DNA from: Isoetes taiwanensis
Taxonomy: Eukaryota > Streptophyta > Lycopodiopsida > Isoetales > Isoetaceae
Length of the DNA stretch: 64,000 bases
Direction of reading: 5' to 3'
NCBI GenBank assembly: GCA_021234155.1
Contig: JAJEKV010000041.1
Location: forward strand, 7,696,917-7,760,916
Position numbers and translations under genes: made by a program
Part shown: positions 8,439 through 59,920 of the stretch, piece by piece
Layout of the letters: each line of letters starts with the position of its first letter
Position numbering within the stretch: the first letter of the stretch is position 1
The notes under the pieces: model-generated
What the model saw: only the letters and a program-made list of their open reading frames with translations
Database searches by the model: none
Told to the model about the DNA's origin: nothing

Positions 8439-8561
8439 GGGTTGCCCCTAGGGGGCAAACCCTTGTTTATGTGGGTTTGTGGAATATCCAGGTATATGCT
8501 GGTATATGCTTAAAATATTCTGGTGACTGCTCCAAACTGGTTGTTGCCAGTAAACTCTCGA

Positions 8562-8951
8562 TCAGCCTTGTTGCCGGATGGTGATGTTCGAAACCCCTAA
8601 CCGGAATGAAATTTCATTTTGTGGAGTGCAAGATAAGCTTCTAGGGTAAATCATTTGCTGCAGGAAAATGACTTTATGAACTTCTGGCATGGTACGGTGA
8701 ACGGCTGCAACAATCTTCTTGCGGCCTATGCAGCAGCAGAATTTTCGAGACTCATAAGATGTAGGGGATGGCGTAAATTCTGTAGCATTTGGATCAAGGC
8801 TCACCTGCTGAGGTAAAGACAAAGGCAGGTTTGATGTCTCTGAGTTTGGTTGATCCAATTCAGAAATATTTGCAATGGGTTCTTCTAAGTTTTTTGCATA
8901 TGCAGACATCAAAGATTGGATTCTCATGTTCGTTGGGACCCTGGGAGCCAT
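8562..8951 (-). CDS. Hypothetical ORF, 129 residues, no recognised domain
   Basis: The minus-strand frame starts MAPRVPTNMRIQSLMSAYAK, has a Ser/Pro-rich middle (LPLSLPQQVSLDPN) and a Cys-rich patch (KFCCCIGRKK). It is 129 codons long and ends in a stop at 8562. It could be an N-terminal exon of a captured gene. I do not recognise it, see no membrane segment, and cannot exclude chance. Confidence 0.25.
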   Translation of the reverse strand: MAPRVPTNMRIQSLMSAYAKNLEEPIANISELDQPNSETSNLPLSLPQQVSLDPNATEFTPSPTSYESRKFCCCIGRKKIVAAVHRTMPEVHKVIFLQQMIYPRSLSCTPQNEISFRLGVSNITIRQQG

Positions 8952-9278
8952 AGCGCATGGATTGATAATGCCCGCTTTTTTTCGTCTTTGGAAGTTTGAT
9001 TAACGGCTTAGGTAGCTTGATGAACGATTCCCATGAAATGTATAGCCAAGTATCCCGGTACCACCAAATGCATGGATAAATTTAAGTTAATCGCTTTTCA
9101 ATTGAATACAACTCATCTTGCTTCGCAGAAAAGCTATTTTTCTCGTCTATCCGGGCCTTGCCTTGGTGGCATCGTGAGCAGGTGCAGAACTAAGTTGATT
9201 TTGTAATGCTAAGGACCTGGATCAGTGTATTTGGCAACCATTTCATTCATTAATGTTTTTATTGTGGGATTTGAGCAG

Positions 9279-12063
9279 AGGTATCCCGTTGGATGCAAAG
9301 TGGTGAAAGGCAAACAACGAGACTAAGAATTAGATACACGGAGGCAATGCTCAACCAAGATGTTGGATTTTTCGATCTGAGGAGGCAAGGGACAGTGATG
9401 TGGTTGGAAGAATATCTAGCGACATGTTAATTATACAAGAGGCTATTAGCTAGAAGGTTCTTGTCCGCCGCCCCATTGCTCGATCTCAAGGCATGATTTT
9501 TCGATGCTTAAGCAAAATATGTTCATGATCAGCTGACTTTAGGGGTTGTGACAGATGGGTATATTCTTACATTTCATGTCGACATTTGTTGGAGGGTTCA
9601 TACTTGGGTTCATAACGTTATGGCGATTAGGTGTTGTAACACTTGGCATCCTTTCTGTAATTGCAAATTTCGGTGGTCTCAGATGCCTATGCACTCATCG
9701 GTGTTACTTCCAAGAGCAGCAAAGATATGCAACTGCAGGAAGCATAGCGAAAATGTGTACATGCCCATCAAATTTTTACCTCCTTTTACGAAGTTGGTTT
9801 TTGAAAAATAAATCAATAGCTCAGGTTTTAAGTCTAAGAAATTTAATTGCAAGACTTAGGTTTGCTTTTATCATGTACGATTTCAATAACACTTTGGCAG
9901 ACATGCTATTTCACAAGCACGGATTGTCTATTCTTTTGTGGGGGAGACAAAAACAATTAGCAGCTATGCGCAAGCATTGAAGTCCACACTTCAATTGGGT
10001 TATAAAGCTGGGATTGCCAAAGGTTTGGGTATAGGATTTACATATGGAATTTTCTTCTATTGCTGGGCACTTTTGATGTGGTATGGAGGCGTTCTCATCA
10101 GACAAGGGCATGCCAATGGTGGCAAAGTTCTTACGTCAATGTTCGCCGTCATAGTTGCTGGCATGTATGTTAAGCTCTCTAACCAAAAAAGTAATAAGAT
10201 CATCAAGAATGATATGGTCAAGAATGATATGGAAGTTTGCATGTTTAATTATTAGTGGTAATTGTTGTGAAGATCTTTGGGTCAAGCTACTCCAAGCATT
10301 GCGGCATTTTCAAAAGCAAGGGTAGCTACTTATCAACTCATGCAGCTGATTAACCATAAGCCTACAATAAACGTTGATAGATTGAAGGGCAAGGTGTTAA
10401 CTGTTGTACAAGGAAACATTGAATTCTGCAATGTCTCTTTCAGTTATCCTTCACGACTTGATGTGGCCATATTTGAGAACCTTTGTCTTCAAATACCAGC
10501 AGAAAAAAAAAATGGCGATGGTAGGAGGTAGTGCTTCTGGAAAGAGCACAATTATCTCACTCATTGAGAGGTTCTATGATCCGACTTCAGGTGCAAATGA
10601 AATCCTTTATGCTGGTGTCTATATCGCAGCAAAGGGTCTTATACATTGATGTTTTGATATAGGGAAGGTGCTACTTGACAACCATGATATTAGGACCTTG
10701 CGCTTAGATTGGCTCGTAACACGCATGGGTCCGGGTTAATCGGGAACCAGCTTTGTTCGCAACAACATTTGAACGTAACATACTTTACGGCAAGCAGGAT
10801 GCAACTATTGAGGACATTGAAAAGGCTGCAATATTTGCAAATGCACATAGCTTTATTAGCCAGCTTCCATATGGGTACAAAACTCAGGTTTCATTATTTA
10901 GGTTCTATTTTATGCTCAATATCTTTCTATATTGCTTTAGACACATAGTATCAATATGTTTCAAAGTCCTGTTATCATCGGTTCTTCTCTCCAGCTTATG
11001 GTAAAATGCTCATAGTCCCCGCTTGGGATATAGGTTGGTGAGCGCATGCAACTTTACGGGGACAAAAGCAGAGGGTTGCAATAGCAAGTGCCATGTTGAA
11101 AGATCCTTCTATTCTTCTTCTTGATGAAGCCACAAGTGTTTTGGATGCGAATCAGAACATGTCGTCCAACCTTTGGATCACCTCATGATAGGGCGGACAA
11201 CAGTCATTGTTGCTAACCGTCTATCTACCATCTGAATGTAGATCTTATTCTTTGTTGTACACAAGGGAATATTGTTTAGTTAGGTACACATGAGGACCTC
11301 ATTGCCAAAGCCAACATGGGACTTATCTTTCGCTCTTGTTAGGCTACAAGCAATGGCAAAAGACCAAGAAGCATATGGAACACAAGAACCCGTGTTTCTT
11401 TCATCTCATTTGTGATGGACGGTTTTGCTTTTCTCCCGCTCAATTCCGTATGTTTTGGTTATGTTTAACTATGTGCGTGGTGTTAAAAAAGACTCCTTTG
11501 ATAAATGCCCAAGTGTAGATACTATGGTTGAGAGTGCAAGGTTCAAGATGGGATCAAGTGTTTCTTGAGCCGGCCAATCCAAGACGGCCGGATCTTATAG
11601 AAGTTGGAGATGTTCTTGAAATACAAGAAGATAAAAAGGTGTCAAATGCATAGTTCTCGAGATTATTAAGGCTAAATGCACCCGAGTGGCCCTTCTTCAC
11701 CGTGGGGAACAATCGAGCCATGTTCTTCGGGGCGTTGTCAATCCGAGTTTTGCATATTTCCTTGCCTCAAATATCAAGGTGTTTTATGACACGGACTTCA
11801 ATCATATGAAAAAAGAACTTGCCAAAAACTCCATTATATTCATCTGTATAGGAGCTGGAACTCTCATGGCCTATTTTGTGGATCACTACTTTTTTGCCAT
11901 TGCTGGCGAAAATCCATGCATATGCGCGAAAAAATGCTTGCAGGTAATGGAACGAATCTGATAAAATTTTGAATATAATAGATAGATATAAGGCATGCAT
12001 GCTTAAACATGTCTCTGTTGCAGCTATATTAAGAAATGAGGTTAGTTGGTTTGATCAACAGGT
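9279..12063 (+). pseudogene. ABCB-type (P-glycoprotein-like) transporter pseudogene fragment with introns
   Basis: Plant ABCB proteins are full-size plasma-membrane transporters (two membrane and two nucleotide-binding domains). Recognisable exons, in order: 9279-9463 (RYTEAMLNQDVGFFD, SSDMLIIQEAIS); 9560-9760 (TFVGGFILGFITLW membrane helices, then QRYATAGSIAK); 9927-10165 (YSFVGETKTISSYAQALKS, ending in MFAVIVAGM); 10278-10594 (GQATPSIAAFSKAR, FSYPSR, Walker [19 protein letters not shown]); 10665-10890 ([18 protein letters not shown]); 11036-11330 (signature reduced to LRGQKQR, Walker [19 protein letters not shown]); 11340-11520 (linker); 11660-11945 (LLRLNAPEWPF and membrane segment of the second half); 12021-12063 (AAILRNEVSWFDQ). 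The A run at 10501-10510 and many other sites break the frame. The first helices and the second nucleotide-binding domain are missing. Introns are kept, so it was copied as DNA, not from mRNA. Confidence 0.88.
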
Positions 12064-15182: not shown

Positions 15183-16838
15183 TGCGGCGCTAAAGCACCT
15201 TGTTTATTATAACTGCATTTTCAGCTTCGTATCTGTTCTTCCAACTGCATCAATCTCACACATCTTTCTTTTAGTGCATCATCCATTTCTAAATTTATTT
15301 GGTATGCCAATCTAAGTGATGGAAGCTCAAGCTCAATTGGCACCACAGATTCTATGCCATAAACCAGACTGAAAGGTGTGTGTTTGGTGGAAGCTTTAAT
15401 GGTGGTCCTATATGCCCATAATGCATCAGGAAGCTTCAAATGCCAATCTCTTTTGGAAATGCTGATTGTTTTTTTAAGAATTGACTTCAAGACCTTATTG
15501 GTTGACTCAGCTTGACCATTACCTTGAGGGTAGTATGCTGAGCTTTTGGTGTGTTTGACTTTTAGAGTGGCTAGCAACAAGGAAATAGTTTGGCTCTTGA
15601 ACTGACTTCCCCTATCAGAAATAATTTTAAAAGGGATTCCAAATCGAGCACAGATGTGCTCATGAAGAAATCTTGAAGTGGTGTAGGCATTTGCTTCTCT
15701 AAGAGGAACTGCTTCAGCCCATTTGGTAAAATAATCTGTGGCCACAAGTATAAATTGATGCTGAGCTGAGGAGGGTGGATCTATTGGACCTACGAAATCA
15801 AGTCCCCATGTTTGGAATGGCCCTGGAGAAGTTATAGCAGTGAGAGGGGCTGGTTGCAATGTCCTTTTGCTAAAGATTTGGCATTTATGACACCATTTTA
15901 TAACATTGAAGCAATCTTTAAAAAGGGTAGGCCAAAAGTATCCAGACCTTAAATTTTTTTGGCAGTTGTATCAGCAGCAAAGTGTCCACCACAAATGCCT
16001 TCATGACAAGCCTCAATGATCATTTTGGCTTCTTCAGGATCCACACATCTCAGCAACACTCCCTCCTTGTCAACTTTGCACAATACTTCTCCAATCAATC
16101 TGAACTTTTTGCATTTCTCTTTGAACCTTCTTTCCTGGCTGCTACTCAAGTCTTTTGGCAACTCATTGTTCTCCAAATAATTCCTGATATCAAATTGCCA
16201 GTCCAAGTCTTTTGCATGAAAGGCAACCAAGTTAGTAACACAATCAACATCATTTAATCCTTCTTGGTCCTCATGCTCAAACAAAGCATAAAGCAAATAG
16301 GAACTAGGATTCTCGACTAAGTTCACCACCTTGACAGTAATATTGTAAGCTTGAATTTTACAAGCCCATCTATATAACTTGGCCTTAGGCTGTTTTTTTT
16401 GCAAACAAGAGAGATAAAGGATTTTGCCTCATGTAGACTTGAGTATGGTTGTTTCGCAAAAGATGATCTTGTTTATCTATTAGAAACATTAATGCAACTG
16501 CACTCTCCTCGAGCCTAGGGTATCTTAATTCAGTGTCAGACCACATCTTGCTGGCAAAAGAAATAACATGGTCTTCTTGAAGAAAAGCCACACCAATTGC
16601 CTTTTTGGTGACAGTAATGTAGGCTTTAAAAGGTTTTTCTAGGTCTGGAGGTTTTCAACAGAATAGAATGACAGATAGCATTGATAATTTTATCAAAGGA
16701 TTCTTGGCATACTTCATTCCAATCAATCAAAATGTGCTTGCTCTCATTCTTAGAGAATTTTTCAACCTTTATGAGGTTAGAAATTGGATTTATGGTGTGT
16801 GAGAAATGAGGAACATACATTCTCAAAAAGCTAGTCAT
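15183..16838 (-). pseudogene. Element B polyprotein fragment, copy 1: end of RT, degenerate RNase H, integrase
   Basis: Read on the minus strand from 16838: MTSFLRMYVPHFSH (end of RT), a connection region, an RNase H-like region with RYPRLEESAVALMFLIDK but without the canonical Asp residues, then YRWACKIQAYNITVKVVN. After this comes integrase. The zinc finger is complete (HEGICGGH and CHKC) and the core has Asp21 (WGLDFVGP), Asp82 (IISDRGSQF) and Glu118 (GNGQAEST) counted from 15859, a DD(35)E. Frames change near 16400, at the A/T run about 15950 and near 15220. The C-terminus is missing; its likely continuation is at 8160-8438. No archaeal-type RNase H lies between RNase H and integrase. Confidence 0.88.
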
Positions 16839-42623: not shown

Positions 42624-44283
42624 TGTCTTGCGCAAAGACACCTTGTTTATTATCTTTGCATTTTCAGCTTCGTATCTGTTCTTCCAACTGCATCAATCTC
42701 ACACATCTTTCTTTTAGTGCATCATCCATTTCTAAATTTATTTGGTATGCCAATCTAAGTGATGGAAGCTCAAGCTCAATTGGCACCACAGATTCTATGC
42801 CATAAACCAGACTGAAAGGTGTGTGTTTGGTGGAAGCTTTAATGGTGGTCCTATATGCCCATAATGCATCAGGAAGCTTCAAATGCCAATCTCTTTTGGA
42901 AATGCTGATTGTTTTTTTAAGAATTGACTTCAAGACCTTATTGGTTGACTCAGCTTGACCATTACCTTGAGGGTAGTATGCTGAGCTTTTGGTGTGTTTG
43001 ACTTTTAGAGTGGCTAGCAACAAGGAAATTGTTTGGCTCTTGAACTGACTTCCCCTATCAGAAATAATTTTAAAAGGGATTCCAAATCGAGCACAGATGT
43101 GCTCATGAAGAAATCTTGAAGTGGTGTAGGCATTTGCTTCTCTAAGAGGAACTGCTTCAGCCCATTTGGTAAAATAATCTGTGGTCACAAGTATAAATTG
43201 ATGCTGAGCTGAGGAGGATGGATCTATTGGACCTATGAAATCAAGTCCCCATGTTTGGAATGGCCGTGGAGAAGTTATGGCAGTGAGAGGAACTGGTTGC
43301 AATGTCCTTTTGCCAAAGATTTGGCATTTATGACAACACTTTATAACATTATAGCAATCTTTAAAAAGGGTAGGCCAAAGTATCCAGACCTTAAAAAATT
43401 TTTGGCAGTTGTATCAGCAGCAAAGTGTCCACCACAAATGCCTTCACGACAAGCCTCAATGATCATTTTGGCTTCTTCAGGATCCACACATCTCAGCAAC
43501 ACTCCTTCCTTGTCAACTTTGCACAATACTTCTCCAATCAATCTAAACTTTTTGCATTTCTCTTTGAACCTTCTTTCCTGGCTGCTACTCAAGTCTTTTG
43601 GCAACTCATTGTTCTCCAAATAATTCCTGATATCAAATTGCCAGTCCAAGTCTTTTGCATGAAAGGCAACCAAGTTAGTAACACAATCAACGTCATTTAA
43701 TCCTTCTTGGTCCTCATGCTCAAACAAAGCATAAAGCAAATAGGAACTAGGATTCTCGACTAAGTTCACCACCTTGACAGTAATATTGTAAGCTTGAATT
43801 TTACAAGCCCATCTATATAACTTGGCCTTAGGCTGTTTTTTTTGCAAACAAGAGAGATAAAGGATTTTGCCTCATGTAGACTTGAGTATGGTTGTTTCGC
43901 AAAAGATGATCTTGTTTATCTATTAGAAACATTAATGCAACTGCACTCTCCTCGAGCCTAGGGTATCTTAATTCAGTGTCAGACCACATCTTGCTGGCAA
44001 AAGAAATAACATGGTCTTCTTGAAGAAAAGCCACACCAATTGCCTTTTTGGTGACAAGAATGTAGGCTTTAAAAGGTTTTTCTAGGTCCGGAGGTTTTCA
44101 ACGAGAATAGAATGATGAGATAGCATTGATAATTTTATCAAAGGATTCTTGGCATACTTCATTCCAATCAATCAAAATGTGCTTGCTCTCATTCTTAGAG
44201 AATTTTTCAACCTTTATGAGGTTAGAAATTGGATTTATGGTGTGTGAGAAATGAGGAACATACATTCTCAAAAAGCTAGTCAT
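42624..44283 (-). pseudogene. Element B polyprotein fragment, copy 4
   Basis: The best preserved RNase H-to-zinc-finger part: one frame (43847-43341) covers YRWACKIQAYNITVKVVN, DIRNYLENNELPKDLSSSQ and HFAADTTAKNF. The integrase frame 42664-43302 keeps DD(35)E. A frame change remains near 43390 and another near 43840. The RT end is shortened by changes near 44100. Confidence 0.88.
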
Positions 44284-50176: not shown

Positions 50177-50857
50177 TGACCTGCAGAAGAAGTCAATGGC
50201 AAGAAAAAGGTAACATTATACAACAAGGTAGGTGAATTTGAGGCCTTAAATTTCATTGAAGAAGAAATGCTGTTGTCAAACCCATGTGGAGAATTTGAAT
50301 TAAATGCAAACAATCAAGTATCCAACTTGGAACTCCCCATTCAGCTAGCACTCCCTAAACAAGACAATTTTGCGTACTTATGGTTTGATGGTGGTGTCTC
50401 CAAAAGGCTAAGTGTGGCCTCATCTGCTGCTATTCTCAAAGACACTTCCAATAGGTTGCTTGCAAAAGTAGGCAGAATTTATCCTAATACCACCTCAAAT
50501 ATGACAGAATACAAAGCTTTGATAGCAGGTCTCCAAGAGGCAAAGAATTTGAGTATTAATGAAATTGTTATCTTTGGAGATTCTCAACTTGTTTGCAGGC
50601 AAATATTGGGTGAGTATCAAGCCAAGAATAAAGTCATGATCTTGCTTAGAGATCAAGCTATACATGAATTAAAGAATTTCAAAACTTGGAGGCTCTATCA
50701 TGTGCCAAGGGAGCAGAATGGTGAGGCTTATGCACTCTGCAAAAGTGTCCTTCTCGAGCACTTAGCTGAAGGAGCAATTCAGGAGGAAGAACTAGAGAAA
50801 AAAGACCTGCAACAACTCTGTCATATTCTGGTAATCAATGCTAGTGAAGAAAAATAG
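50177..50857 (+). pseudogene. Element C polyprotein part 1: archaeal-type RNase H upstream of RT
   Basis: The frame opens after a TGA at about 50174 and runs VTLYNKVGEFEALNFIEEEM before the Met at 50267. Counting from that Met, an RNase H fold of the archaeal/plant Tat type is seen: Asp41 in YLWFDGG, Glu81 in TEYKALIAGLQEAK, Asp105 in GDSQLVCRQILGEYQAKN and YHVPREQNGEAYAL at 145-157. The fourth acidic site, normally Asp in ADALA, is Tyr155 (codon TAT). The frame meets TAG at 50855 but continues in phase into RT. In Tat elements as I know them this domain follows the first RNase H and precedes integrase; here it precedes RT. It would degrade RNA in RNA-DNA hybrids during reverse transcription. 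Confidence 0.85.
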
Positions 50858-51640
50858 GTAAAGAAAATCAAACTGAACAAGAAAGCTTTAGATAGAGTTC
50901 TGTATGTTGGAGATTTGTTCAAAGAAGAAGATAACACCTTTGTCACGAATTTCTTTGATGATTGAAAGGATATTTTTGCTTGGAACTATGATGAACTGGT
51001 TGGTGTTGACATATGCATTTGTGAGTTTGAGATAAAGATTAAAGAAGGTATGAAACATGTGGTACAAAAACTCAGAAGAATTAATGCATCCTTGTTAGGA
51101 CTAATTAAAGAAGAGTTATATCAAATGAAGGATGCAGGTGTGATTGCAGAAATTGTGAACCCTGAATGGCTATCTTGCATTGTCCCTGTAGAAAAGAAAA
51201 ATAAAACCATCAGGATCTGCATTGACTATAGAGACCTAAATAAAGCTACCATTAAAGATTGCTACCCCTTACCATTTTTAGAGGAAGTCTTGCATGCTGT
51301 TGCAGGTAAAGACATATATTCTTTCTTAGATGGTTTCTCAGGTTTCAACCAAATAAGCATAAAGGAGGAGGATCAGCCAAAGACCTCATTCATCACACCA
51401 TGGGGAACATTTGCCATGAGGAGGATGCCCTTTGGACTAATGAATGCATCTACAACATTCCAAAGAGCTATGGACACAATTTTCAAAGACATGCCTGCTA
51501 ATGCTTTTCGTGTCTTCTTGGATGATCTTTGCTTAGGAACCTCCCTCAAGAGTCATTTTGATGTTCTAGCTAAGTTGTTTGCCTTGTGCAGGAAAGGGGG
51601 AGTCAGCTTAAATCCAAAAAAATGTGTTTTCTTGTGTTGA
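50858..51640 (+). pseudogene. Element C polyprotein part 2: reverse transcriptase
   Basis: In phase with the RNase H frame: VKKIKLNKKALDRVLYVGDL, a TGA at about 50963, then KDIFAWNYDELVGVD, the typical lead-in to Ty3/gypsy RT. From the Met at 51050, RT motifs are IRICIDYRDLN (55-64), SFLDGFSGFNQI with catalytic Asp94, TPWGTFAMRRMPFGLMNAS and FLDDL with Asp158-Asp159. A TGA at 51638-51640 ends the open part. RT makes cDNA from the element RNA. Three in-frame stops make it non-functional as read. Confidence 0.92.
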
Positions 51641-52458
51641 AAAGGAGAACTGCTTGGACATGTGTCTACAAAAGGCATTCAAGTGGCTGAGGCTAAGGTT
51701 GAGGCTTTGAAAAAGTTGGCACCTCCCAAGATACTCAAACAGGTAAAAAGCTTCATGGGAATGACCAGTTTCTTGACAATGTATGTCCCCCACTTCTCAC
51801 ACACTATGAATCCAATTTCTACCCTCACAAAGGTTGGAAAATTTTCCAAAAGTGAAAGCAAGCATATTCTGGTTGATTGGAATGAAGAGTGCCAGGAATC
51901 TTTTGACAAAATCATTAATGCCATCTGTAATTCCATCCTGTTAAACCCTCCTGATTTAGAAAAGCCCTTCAAAGCGTATATCAGTGTCACTAAAAAGGCA
52001 ATTGGTGTTGCTTTACTACAAGAGGATCATGTAATTGCTTTTGCTAGCAAAATGTGGTCTGACACTGAGCTAAGATATCCTAGACTGGAAAAGAGTGCAG
52101 CAGCTCTCATGTTTTTGATAGAGAGGCAGGGACATTTGCTACAAAATAGCCAAGTTCAAGTCTTTATGAGGCAAAATCCTTTGTCACTCCTTTTTGCTAA
52201 GAAGCAACCCAAAACAAAGTTGTGCAGGTGGGCCTATAAAGTCCAGACCTATAATATTAATGTCAAAGTGGTTAATTTAGTGGAAAATCCCAGTGCATAT
52301 CTGCCTTATGTTCTATTTGAACACGAGGATCAAGATGGCTTGTATAATGATGATCTTGTTACTAACTTGGTTGTTTTTCATGCAAGAGACTTAGACTAGC
52401 AGTGTGAGATCAGAAATTACCTTGAAAACAATGAAGTGCCAAAGAATTTGAGCAGCAG
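51641..52458 (+). pseudogene. Element C polyprotein part 3: RT thumb/connection and degenerate RNase H
   Basis: It continues in the same phase: HVSTKGIQVAEAKVEALK, SFMGMTSFLTMYVPHFSH, then an RNase H-like region FKAYISVTKKAIGVALLQ (about 103-120 from 51662). The canonical first Asp is absent. RYPRLEKSAAAL keeps the Glu, and VFMRQNPL stands where a TD-containing word is usual. Then CRWAYKVQTYNINVKVVN. A TAG at 52397-52399 replaces the Trp codon of DLDWQ in element B. The frame goes on to NNEVPKNLSSSQ and is cut at 52458 by the family C repeat. The loss of catalytic Asp fits a Tat-type connection domain. No integrase is present. Confidence 0.9.
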
Positions 52459-53110
52459 TCAAACCAGCCAATCTCCCCGTGCCACGTGGAACATCCGGGC
52501 GTGTGGGGCGGTGGAGGTACCAAGGCCCACGTGGATATTACACGTAAATCTTATTAATAATAGATTTATTTTTTCTTATATACCTGGAGCCTCCCGATCG
52601 ATTTTGGCCTGTGGGATATTGTTTATGAACTGCTAAGAACTCTAATGCTCTACTAACGCCAAGATCCGGCTAATTGGCCCCCAACAAGAACTCAATCATG
52701 ACCTTGAGAGGCCGAATTGTCTTGCATTACATCAAGAAAGCATCTCAGAAGCTAAAGGATAGAGGATCGATCCGAATTGGCCAAGAATCAGACAGAACAG
52801 GGGAATCTTAAAAAGGGACTTTTGTGCTCAGAGAAAATTCGAGGGCTTTGAGGTGAAAAAGAGATTGATTACCTTGAAGAAGGACCGGCTTGCATCTTTG
52901 GAGCTTGATTTTGCCTTCCACACTTGATATTTAGCTTGAATTATTGACAAATTCATGCAAATTCCTTGATTGTATACCTATTTGATCCTGTGCCCAAGAC
53001 TTAGAGCTTGGGATTGTTATTGTTTGCCTGTGTGTACCTGATTCAAATGAAAATCCGAGCCTTGTTATTAAAATTATGAGTGTTCCTTATCAATCTGATG
53101 ACAGAATTAT
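52459..53110 (+). repeat. Family C LTR-like repeat, copy 2
   Basis: It starts abruptly after the SSSQ codons with CCAGCCAATCTCCCC and aligns to 3920-4325 and 5465-5620 without the 1.1-kb insertion. CACGTGG appears twice. The right end is not defined. Confidence 0.55.
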
Positions 53111-56810: not shown

Positions 56811-57754
56811 GCATGCCATTTCACCACTTGGAGTGCCTAGGCCACCTTGGCATGTTGGACCCTAGGTGGCATGTTGGAGCTCGCGTGGCATGTTGGAGCC
56901 ACCTTGGCATGTTTGAGCCTAGGTGGCATGTTAGAGCCACCTTGGCATGTTGGAGCCCACGTGGCATGTTTGAGACACCTTGGTATGTTTGAGCCACCTT
57001 GTCATATTGGAGCCTAGGTGGCATGTTTGAGCCACCTTGGCATGCCTGAGCCACCTTGGCATGTTGGAACCTAGGTGGCATATTGGATCCCACATGGGAT
57101 GTTTGAGCCACCTTGGCATGTTTGAGCCACCTCGGCATGTTGGAACCTAGGTGGCATGTTGGTGCCTAGGTGGCATGCTTGAGGCACCTTGGCATGTTGG
57201 AGCCTAGGTGGCACGTTGGAGCCCACATGGCATGTTTGAGCCACCTTGGCATGTTAGGCCTAGGTGGTATGTTTGAGCCACCTTGGCATGTTGGAGCCTA
57301 GGTGGCATATTGGAGCCCGCGTGGCATGTTTGAACCACCTTGGCATGTTGGAGCCTAGGTGGCATGTTGGGAGCCCACGTGGCATGTTTGAGCCACCTTG
57401 GCATGTTGGAGCCTAGGTGGCATGTTAGAGCCCGCGTGGCACGTTTGTGCCACCTTGACATGTTTGAGCCACCTTGGCATGTTTGAGCCTAGGTGGCATG
57501 TTGGAGCCCGCATGGCATGTTTGAGCCACCTTGGCATGTTTGAGCCTAGTGGCATATTTGAGCCACCTTGGCATGTTGGAGCCCGCATGGCATGTTTGAG
57601 CCACCTTGGCATGTTTGAGCCTAATGGCATATTTGAGCCACCTTGGCATGTTGGAGCCTAGGTGGCATGTTGGAGCCTACATGCCATGTTTGAGCCACCT
57701 TGGCATATTTGAGCCTAGGTGGCATGTTGGAGCCCACGTGGCATGCATGGGCGC
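56811..57754. repeat. 19-bp minisatellite, block 1
   Basis: The unit is GGCATGTT(G/T)GAGCC followed by either TAGGT or ACCTT. The two variants of the last five bases are nearly reverse complements, so CCTAGGTGG and CCACCTTGG cores alternate along the array. About 50 units with frequent variants. Both strands lack stop codons over long stretches only because the unit has none. Confidence 0.95.
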
Positions 57755-58202: not shown

Positions 58203-59920
58203 AAACCGCATGTTTGAGCCACCTTGGCATGTTTGAGCATGTTGGAGCCTAGGTGGCATGTCTGAACCACCTTGGCATGTTGGAGCCTAGGTGGCATGTT
58301 TGAGCGACCTTGCTAAGTTTGAGCCACCTTGGCACGTTGGAGCCGCCTTGCGCGTTGGAGCCACCTTGGCATATTGGAGCATAGGTGGCATGTTGGAGCC
58401 CAGGTGGCATGTTTGAGCCACCTTGGCATGTTTGAGCCTAGGTGGCATGTTGGAGCCTAGGTGGCATGCCTGAGCCACCTTGGCACGTTGGAGCCACCTT
58501 GGCATATTGGAGCATAGGTGGCATGTTGGAGCCCAGGTGGCATGTTTGAGCCACCTTGGCATGTTTGAGGCTAGGTGGCATGTTTGAGCCACCTTGGCAT
58601 GTTTGAGCCTAGGTCGCATGTTGGAGCCTGCGTGGCATGTTTGAGCCACCTTGGCATGTTTGGGCATGTTGGAGCCTAGGTGGCATGTGTGAACCACCTT
58701 GGCATGTTGGAGCCTTGGTGGCATGTTGGAGCCTTGGTGACATATTGGAGCCTAGATGGCATGTTTGAGCCACCTTGGCACGTTGGAGCCACCTTGGCAT
58801 GTTGGAGCCTAGGTGGCATGTTGGAGTCCATGTGGCATGTTTGAGCCTAGGTGGCATGTTGGTGCCTAGGTGGCATGCTTGAGCCACCTTGGCATGTTGG
58901 AGCCTAGATGGCATGTTGGAGCCCACATGTCATGTTTGAGCCACCTTGACATGTTTGAACCTAGGTGGCATGTTGGAGCCAAGGTGGCATGTTGGAGCAC
59001 ACATAGCATGTTTGAGCCTAGGTGGCATGTTGGAGCCTAGGTGGCATGTTTGAGCCACCTTGGCATGTTGGAGCCTAAGTGGCATGTTTGAGCCACCTTG
59101 TCATGTTATTAGAGCCTAGGTGGCATGTTGGAGCCTACGTGGCATGTTTGAGCCACCTTGGCATGTTTGAGCATGTTGGAGCCTAGGTGGCATGTCTGAA
59201 CCACCTTGGCATGTTGGAGCCTTGGTGGCATGTTGGAGCCTAAGTGGCATGTTCGAGCCACCTTGGCATGTTTGAGCCATCTTGGCATGTTGGAGCCACC
59301 TTGGCATGTTGGAGCCTAGGTGGCATGTTGGAGCCCACGTGGCATGTTTGAGCCACCTTGTCATGTTGGAGCCTAGGTGGCATGTTGAAGGTACCTTGGC
59401 ATGTTTGAGCCTAGGTGGCATGTTAGAGCCTAGGTGGCATGTTTGAGCCACCTTGGCATGTTGGAGCCCATGTGGCATGTTTGAGCCACCTCGGCATGTT
59501 GGAGCCTAGGTGGCATATTGGAGCCCACATGGCATGTTTGAGCCACCTTGTCATGTTGGAGCCTAGGTGGCATGTTTGAGCCACCTTGGCATATTGGAGC
59601 CTAGGTGGCATGTTAGAGCCACCTTGGCATGTTTGAGCCTAGGTGGCATGTTAGAGCCACGTTGGCATGTTGGAGCCTAAGTGGCATGTTTGAGCCACCC
59701 TGGCATGTTTGAGCCTAGGTGAGCCTAGGTGGCATGTTGTGAGCCACCTTGGCATGTTGGAGTCTAGGTGGCATGGTGGAGCCCACGTGGCATTTTGCGT
59801 CACCTTGGCATGTTGGAGCTCGCATGGCATGTTAGAGCCCCGTCGCATATTGGAGCCACCTTGGCATGTTTGACCACCTTGGTGGCATGTTTGAACCTAG
59901 GTGGCATGTTTGAGCAAGGT
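58203..59920. repeat. 19-bp minisatellite, block 2
   Basis: Same unit and alternation as block 1, about 90 units. Some deletions (for example GTTTGAGCATGTTGGAGCC near 58218) recur at 58650 and 59165, showing higher-order copying of multi-unit blocks. Confidence 0.95.

Follow-up and report, generated by a model that had tools for sequence, protein, structure and literature searches.

Does the archaeal-type RNase H (aRH) that precedes the reverse transcriptase (RT) in a retroelement of the quillwort Isoetes taiwanensis represent a relocated or newly acquired domain, or an arrangement already established in its lineage? The element lies at positions 50195–52462 of the forward strand of the window, the 64,000-nucleotide stretch of DNA analyzed here. 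An earlier note, made from the letters alone, judged the order unusual for Tat elements as a whole because it took the order of the angiosperm Ogre/Retand elements as the rule. That judgment did not survive comparison with the literature: placement of the aRH ahead of RT defines the TatI and TatII lineages (Neumann et al. 2019, PMC6317226) and corresponds to "structure #2" of Biryukov & Ustyantsev 2023 (PMC10508981). The segment, which sits in a lycophyte genome, is almost certainly a truncated and decayed copy of a Ty3/gypsy LTR retrotransposon from the Tat lineage, with the TatI/"structure #2" organization.

Domain order and decay of the window copy

Using blastn against relatives elsewhere in the genome (loci L004–L036), we found the pol fragment to be collinear with them, running from the C-terminal tail of the protease through the aRH and RT to a degenerate RNase H. 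Pfam placed the aRH (RVT_3, PF13456, E = 1e-21) at 50384–50746, with a residue table showing its final catalytic Asp replaced by Tyr, and the RT core (RVT_1, PF00078, E = 6e-25) at 51188–51634, where a motif check found FLDD and FLDGFSGFNQ intact. The native Ty3-type RNase H follows at 51878–52252 (PF17919/PF17917); by alignment it has lost its catalytic Asp residues and is connection- or tether-like. When the pieces were searched separately, RT_RNaseH_2 and RT_RNaseH matched at about 51878–52252 with E-values of about 1e-18 to 1e-19, and the scores of all three domains are far above chance. The FDGG, TEYKAL, GDSQLV, and FLDD motifs were all recovered. Pfam order and alignment thus bear out the claim that an RNase H is followed by RT and then by a second RNase H lacking catalytic Asp. 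No Rfam match indicated an RNA element in the region.

The earlier note also described these domains as lying in one continuous phase. Translation of the window, together with Pfam searches of the pieces, confirmed that the aRH, RT, and degenerate RNase H share a single plus-strand reading phase, but that phase is not continuous, being interrupted by in-phase stops at 50855–50857 and 50963–50965 (both between the aRH and RT) and at 51638–51640 (at the RT end). Because these three stops break the phase, and with the private Asp-to-Tyr change and broken ends, the window copy is a pseudogene.

Both ends of the copy are abrupt. In blastn comparisons with L004–L036, homology begins at 50193–50195, within the last protease residues, and extends no further than 52462 in relatives long enough to get there. 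Immediately beyond, at 52464–53065 (plus strand), the pol fragment adjoins a piece of a diverged Tat element, comprising the 3′ portion of its LTR together with about 80 bp of leader sequence; this piece matches positions 788–1380 of L034, whose LTR pair lies at 1–1298 and 8501–9794, as well as L035 and L036, at 68–71%. No integrase is present at this junction. The homology edges and the foreign LTR past 52464 show that the copy has lost both its ends and is fused to a second fragment downstream of the native RNase H, and 50195 and 52462 are breakpoints of the window copy itself.

Active sites of the two RNases H

A profile built from 15 aRH sequences matched six distinct Protein DataBank chains at E ≤ 0.01: 4e19, 3hst (Rv2228c), 3u3g, 4h8k, 3aly (ST0753), and 2ehg. 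We take all six to be archaeal or archaeal-type RNases H, from Halobacterium, Mycobacterium, a metagenome, and Sulfolobus; as no other kind of structure was matched, the archaeal type of the aRH is supported. Domains, relatives, and these profile matches together substantiate the proposal that the element is of Tat type and that an archaeal-type RNase H precedes its RT.

The D-E-D-R-D set of the aRH is well conserved, each site being kept in 48–49 of 51 aligned copies, including the active-site Arg (VPREQN/IPREEN) in 49. The earlier note had reported Tyr at the fourth acidic position and suggested that the copy is inactive or that the family tolerates the change. The Tyr is present (codon TAT, 50729–50731), although it is residue 184, not 155, in the numbering of the piece that starts at 50180. 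Tolerance by the family found no support, since 48 of the 51 copies carry Asp at this last catalytic site and the window copy alone carries Tyr, which makes the substitution a lesion of this copy and no family trait. A functional Tyr variant was ruled out on the same 51-copy alignment. The native RNase H, by contrast with the aRH, lacks its catalytic Asp residues in all elements and subfamilies inspected by alignment: SVT or TVT replaces the first Asp, MRQN or a similar sequence the Asp of TDH, and NPSxY the last Asp.

Relatives in the Isoetes taiwanensis genome

A search with the aRH piece as query yielded 151 matches in the host genome out of 4228 first-look candidates, with protein identity down to 66%, and the genome holds at least 150 aRH relatives. 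We mapped domain order in 50 sampled loci with detectable RT (L004–L056 minus L017, L019, and L030, in which RT was not detected; L021–L024 form a single tandem array). The aRH lies upstream of RT in 50/50. An aRH downstream of the native RNase H, the placement that the earlier note had named as contrary to its reading, was found in none of the 50 mapped loci. The sample is skewed toward high-scoring matches, so rarer arrangements may escape it, and elements whose aRH follows the native RNase H may occur elsewhere in the genome.

Among L004–L032, the loci around the best aRH matches, each one with a detected RT shows the aRH first, then the linker, RT, and finally the native RNase H. Twelve elements with long open frames (L033–L044) extend the picture, with the aRH, RT, degenerate RNase H, and integrase in this order in 12/12 and no second aRH in the gap between RNase H and integrase. 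Pfam identified the gag zinc knuckle and integrase domains in L033 and L039, and a gag domain in L039. Between the zinc knuckle and the aRH, L033, L038, and L039 carry a stretch resembling retropepsin (LDGGSPLNVMP ... DLLLGRRWL or near variants of it). Intact relatives encode all these parts in a single frame, from the gag zinc knuckle and protease through the aRH, RT, and degenerate RNase H to integrase. The aRH also precedes RT in 12 further elements taken from the RVT_3 match list (L045–L056).

Trees of RT and of the aRH, each built from 24 elements, gave matching main groups and subfamilies, although support is poor for some inner branches and the aRH tree brings long branches together. 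The groups present in both are the window copy with L033–L036; L039/L041/L048/L049; L045–L047; L038/L044; and L037/L040/L043/L050/L055. This agreement indicates that the aRH travelled with RT through the diversification of the family. RT of deeply diverged subfamilies is about 52–63% identical to that of the window copy, and the order is common to all. For the close pair L033/L036, dN/dS was 0.16 for the aRH and 0.06 for RT, showing that the aRH is under purifying selection in this pair; dS is saturated in most wider comparisons. In several elements the two LTRs are about 98–99% identical to each other, so some insertions are recent.

L021–L024 (G000:C1045:5354859–5369488) comprise four tandem aRH-containing Tat fragments at a spacing of about 3.66 kb, and are a repeat array of retrotransposon origin.

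Relation to catalogued Tat lineages

The order seen here is already known and catalogued for clubmoss and gymnosperm Tat elements, an outcome that the earlier note had itself envisaged. In REXdb, TatI of clubmosses and TatII of gymnosperms are defined by an aRH between the protease and RT, with subclade criteria that include primer-binding-site (PBS) type, target-site-duplication (TSD) length, and an extra ORF (PMC6317226). Structure #2, an aRH upstream of RT in pol, comprises Tat clusters E, F, G, and J and was described from three clubmosses and all gymnosperms studied; the main text does not say whether Isoetes is among the three (PMC10508981).

The Isoetes elements resemble TatI/TatII in having the aRH between protease and RT, a degenerate native RNase H, and integrase directly after it, and resemble TatI in their lycophyte host. 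By architecture and host we found no difference, the window copy itself being a broken fragment. With structure #2 they share the upstream aRH and a native RNase H whose active site has been lost, leaving it tether-like. As in that kind of element, the aRH is archaeal in type, with the active-site Arg and its nearest likeness to archaeal RNase HI. The protease–aRH–RT order is found in the relatives, with only the protease tail retained in the window copy; a degenerate native RNase H accompanies a catalytic aRH, of which the window copy has privately lost one Asp; and in L033–L044 the native RNase H is succeeded directly by integrase, a second aRH being absent, as Pfam shows for L033 and L039. 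The angiosperm Ogre/Retand elements (structure #1) likewise possess a second, archaeal-type RNase H and a degenerate native one, but their aRH sits between the native RNase H and integrase, a placement absent from L033–L044. As a lycophyte, Isoetes fits TatI and the published distribution of the order. The assignment to TatI/structure #2 is based on domain architecture, the degenerate native RNase H, and the host rather than on a tree built jointly with reference sequences.

Since the arrangement is catalogued (PMC6317226, PMC10508981), it matters little as a discovery. What the quillwort elements add is a well-sampled lycophyte example: numerous copies in which the aRH active site is conserved and the native RNase H is dead. 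They also agree with the published view that the native active site is lost regardless of where the extra RNase H is positioned (PMC10508981).

Origin and proposed roles of the upstream RNase H

Two other origins for the order were weighed. A local chimera, in which an aRH fragment of one element or of a host gene came by chance to lie before the RT of another, draws on the breaks at 50195 and 52462 and on the 3′ neighbor, an LTR fragment belonging to a more diverged element. Yet the whole 2.27 kb segment aligns collinearly with intact relatives at 78% DNA identity (closer copies reach 92%), and every mapped element has the identical order. With the foreign LTR junction confined to the 3′ side of the segment, we rejected a two-element chimera for aRH–RT–RNase H, and we regard any version of this scenario as exceedingly improbable. 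That the family gained or relocated an RNase H independently or recently, in a way distinct from the catalogued TatI/TatII order, is slightly less remote and still very unlikely. The aRH phylogeny across land-plant Tat elements is unresolved in the literature (PMC10508981), and multiple gains were formerly proposed (PMC6317226), which leaves room for such an event. Against it stand the order shared by deeply diverged subfamilies, the agreement of the RT and aRH trees on main groups, and the prior description of the same order in clubmosses; the relocation or gain put forward in the earlier note is therefore unsupported.

For the TatI/structure #2 element that we favor, the N-terminal aRH would be the sole source of RNase H catalysis in reverse transcription, leaving the native RNase H as a non-catalytic connection or tether domain, both in line with PMC10508981. 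From established retroelement biology, the protease may either free the aRH or leave it fused to RT. It is an evenly balanced proposition that protease–aRH–RT–RNase H–integrase is the dominant or only Tat organization in quillworts, kept across deeply diverged subfamilies with recent insertions, and that an RNase H before RT can thus stably do the job placed after RT in flowering-plant Tat elements and retroviruses.

Element B and other features of the window

The earlier note had pointed to a second element, Element B, as passing from a degenerate RNase H straight to integrase. By tblastn this is correct (minus strand, 42667–44283; RNase H at 43644–44283, integrase at 42667–43413), but Element B only starts at residue 41 of the RNase H, and the truncation accounts for the absence of an aRH and RT of its own. 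The same type of integrase occurs at 15224–15970, where PF00665 and PF17921 match.

A large tandem duplication spans 13463–48613; its unit measures about 9.88 kb (about 7.69 kb in one copy) and is repeated at 97–98% identity. It is made of truncated Tat pieces on the minus strand, both RNase H–integrase and integrase fragments. Sharp edges at 44283/44284, 47699, 16838/16839, and equivalent positions mark where differing truncated pol pieces, some beginning at residue 41 of the RNase H and others within integrase, adjoin one repeat of ~1 kb, whose copies are about 74–76% alike. Further along, 56841–57745 and 58208–59915 hold a minisatellite of period 57 and sub-period 19, which is open in several frames and reads as repeats such as GSNMPPRLQHAKVAQTCH.
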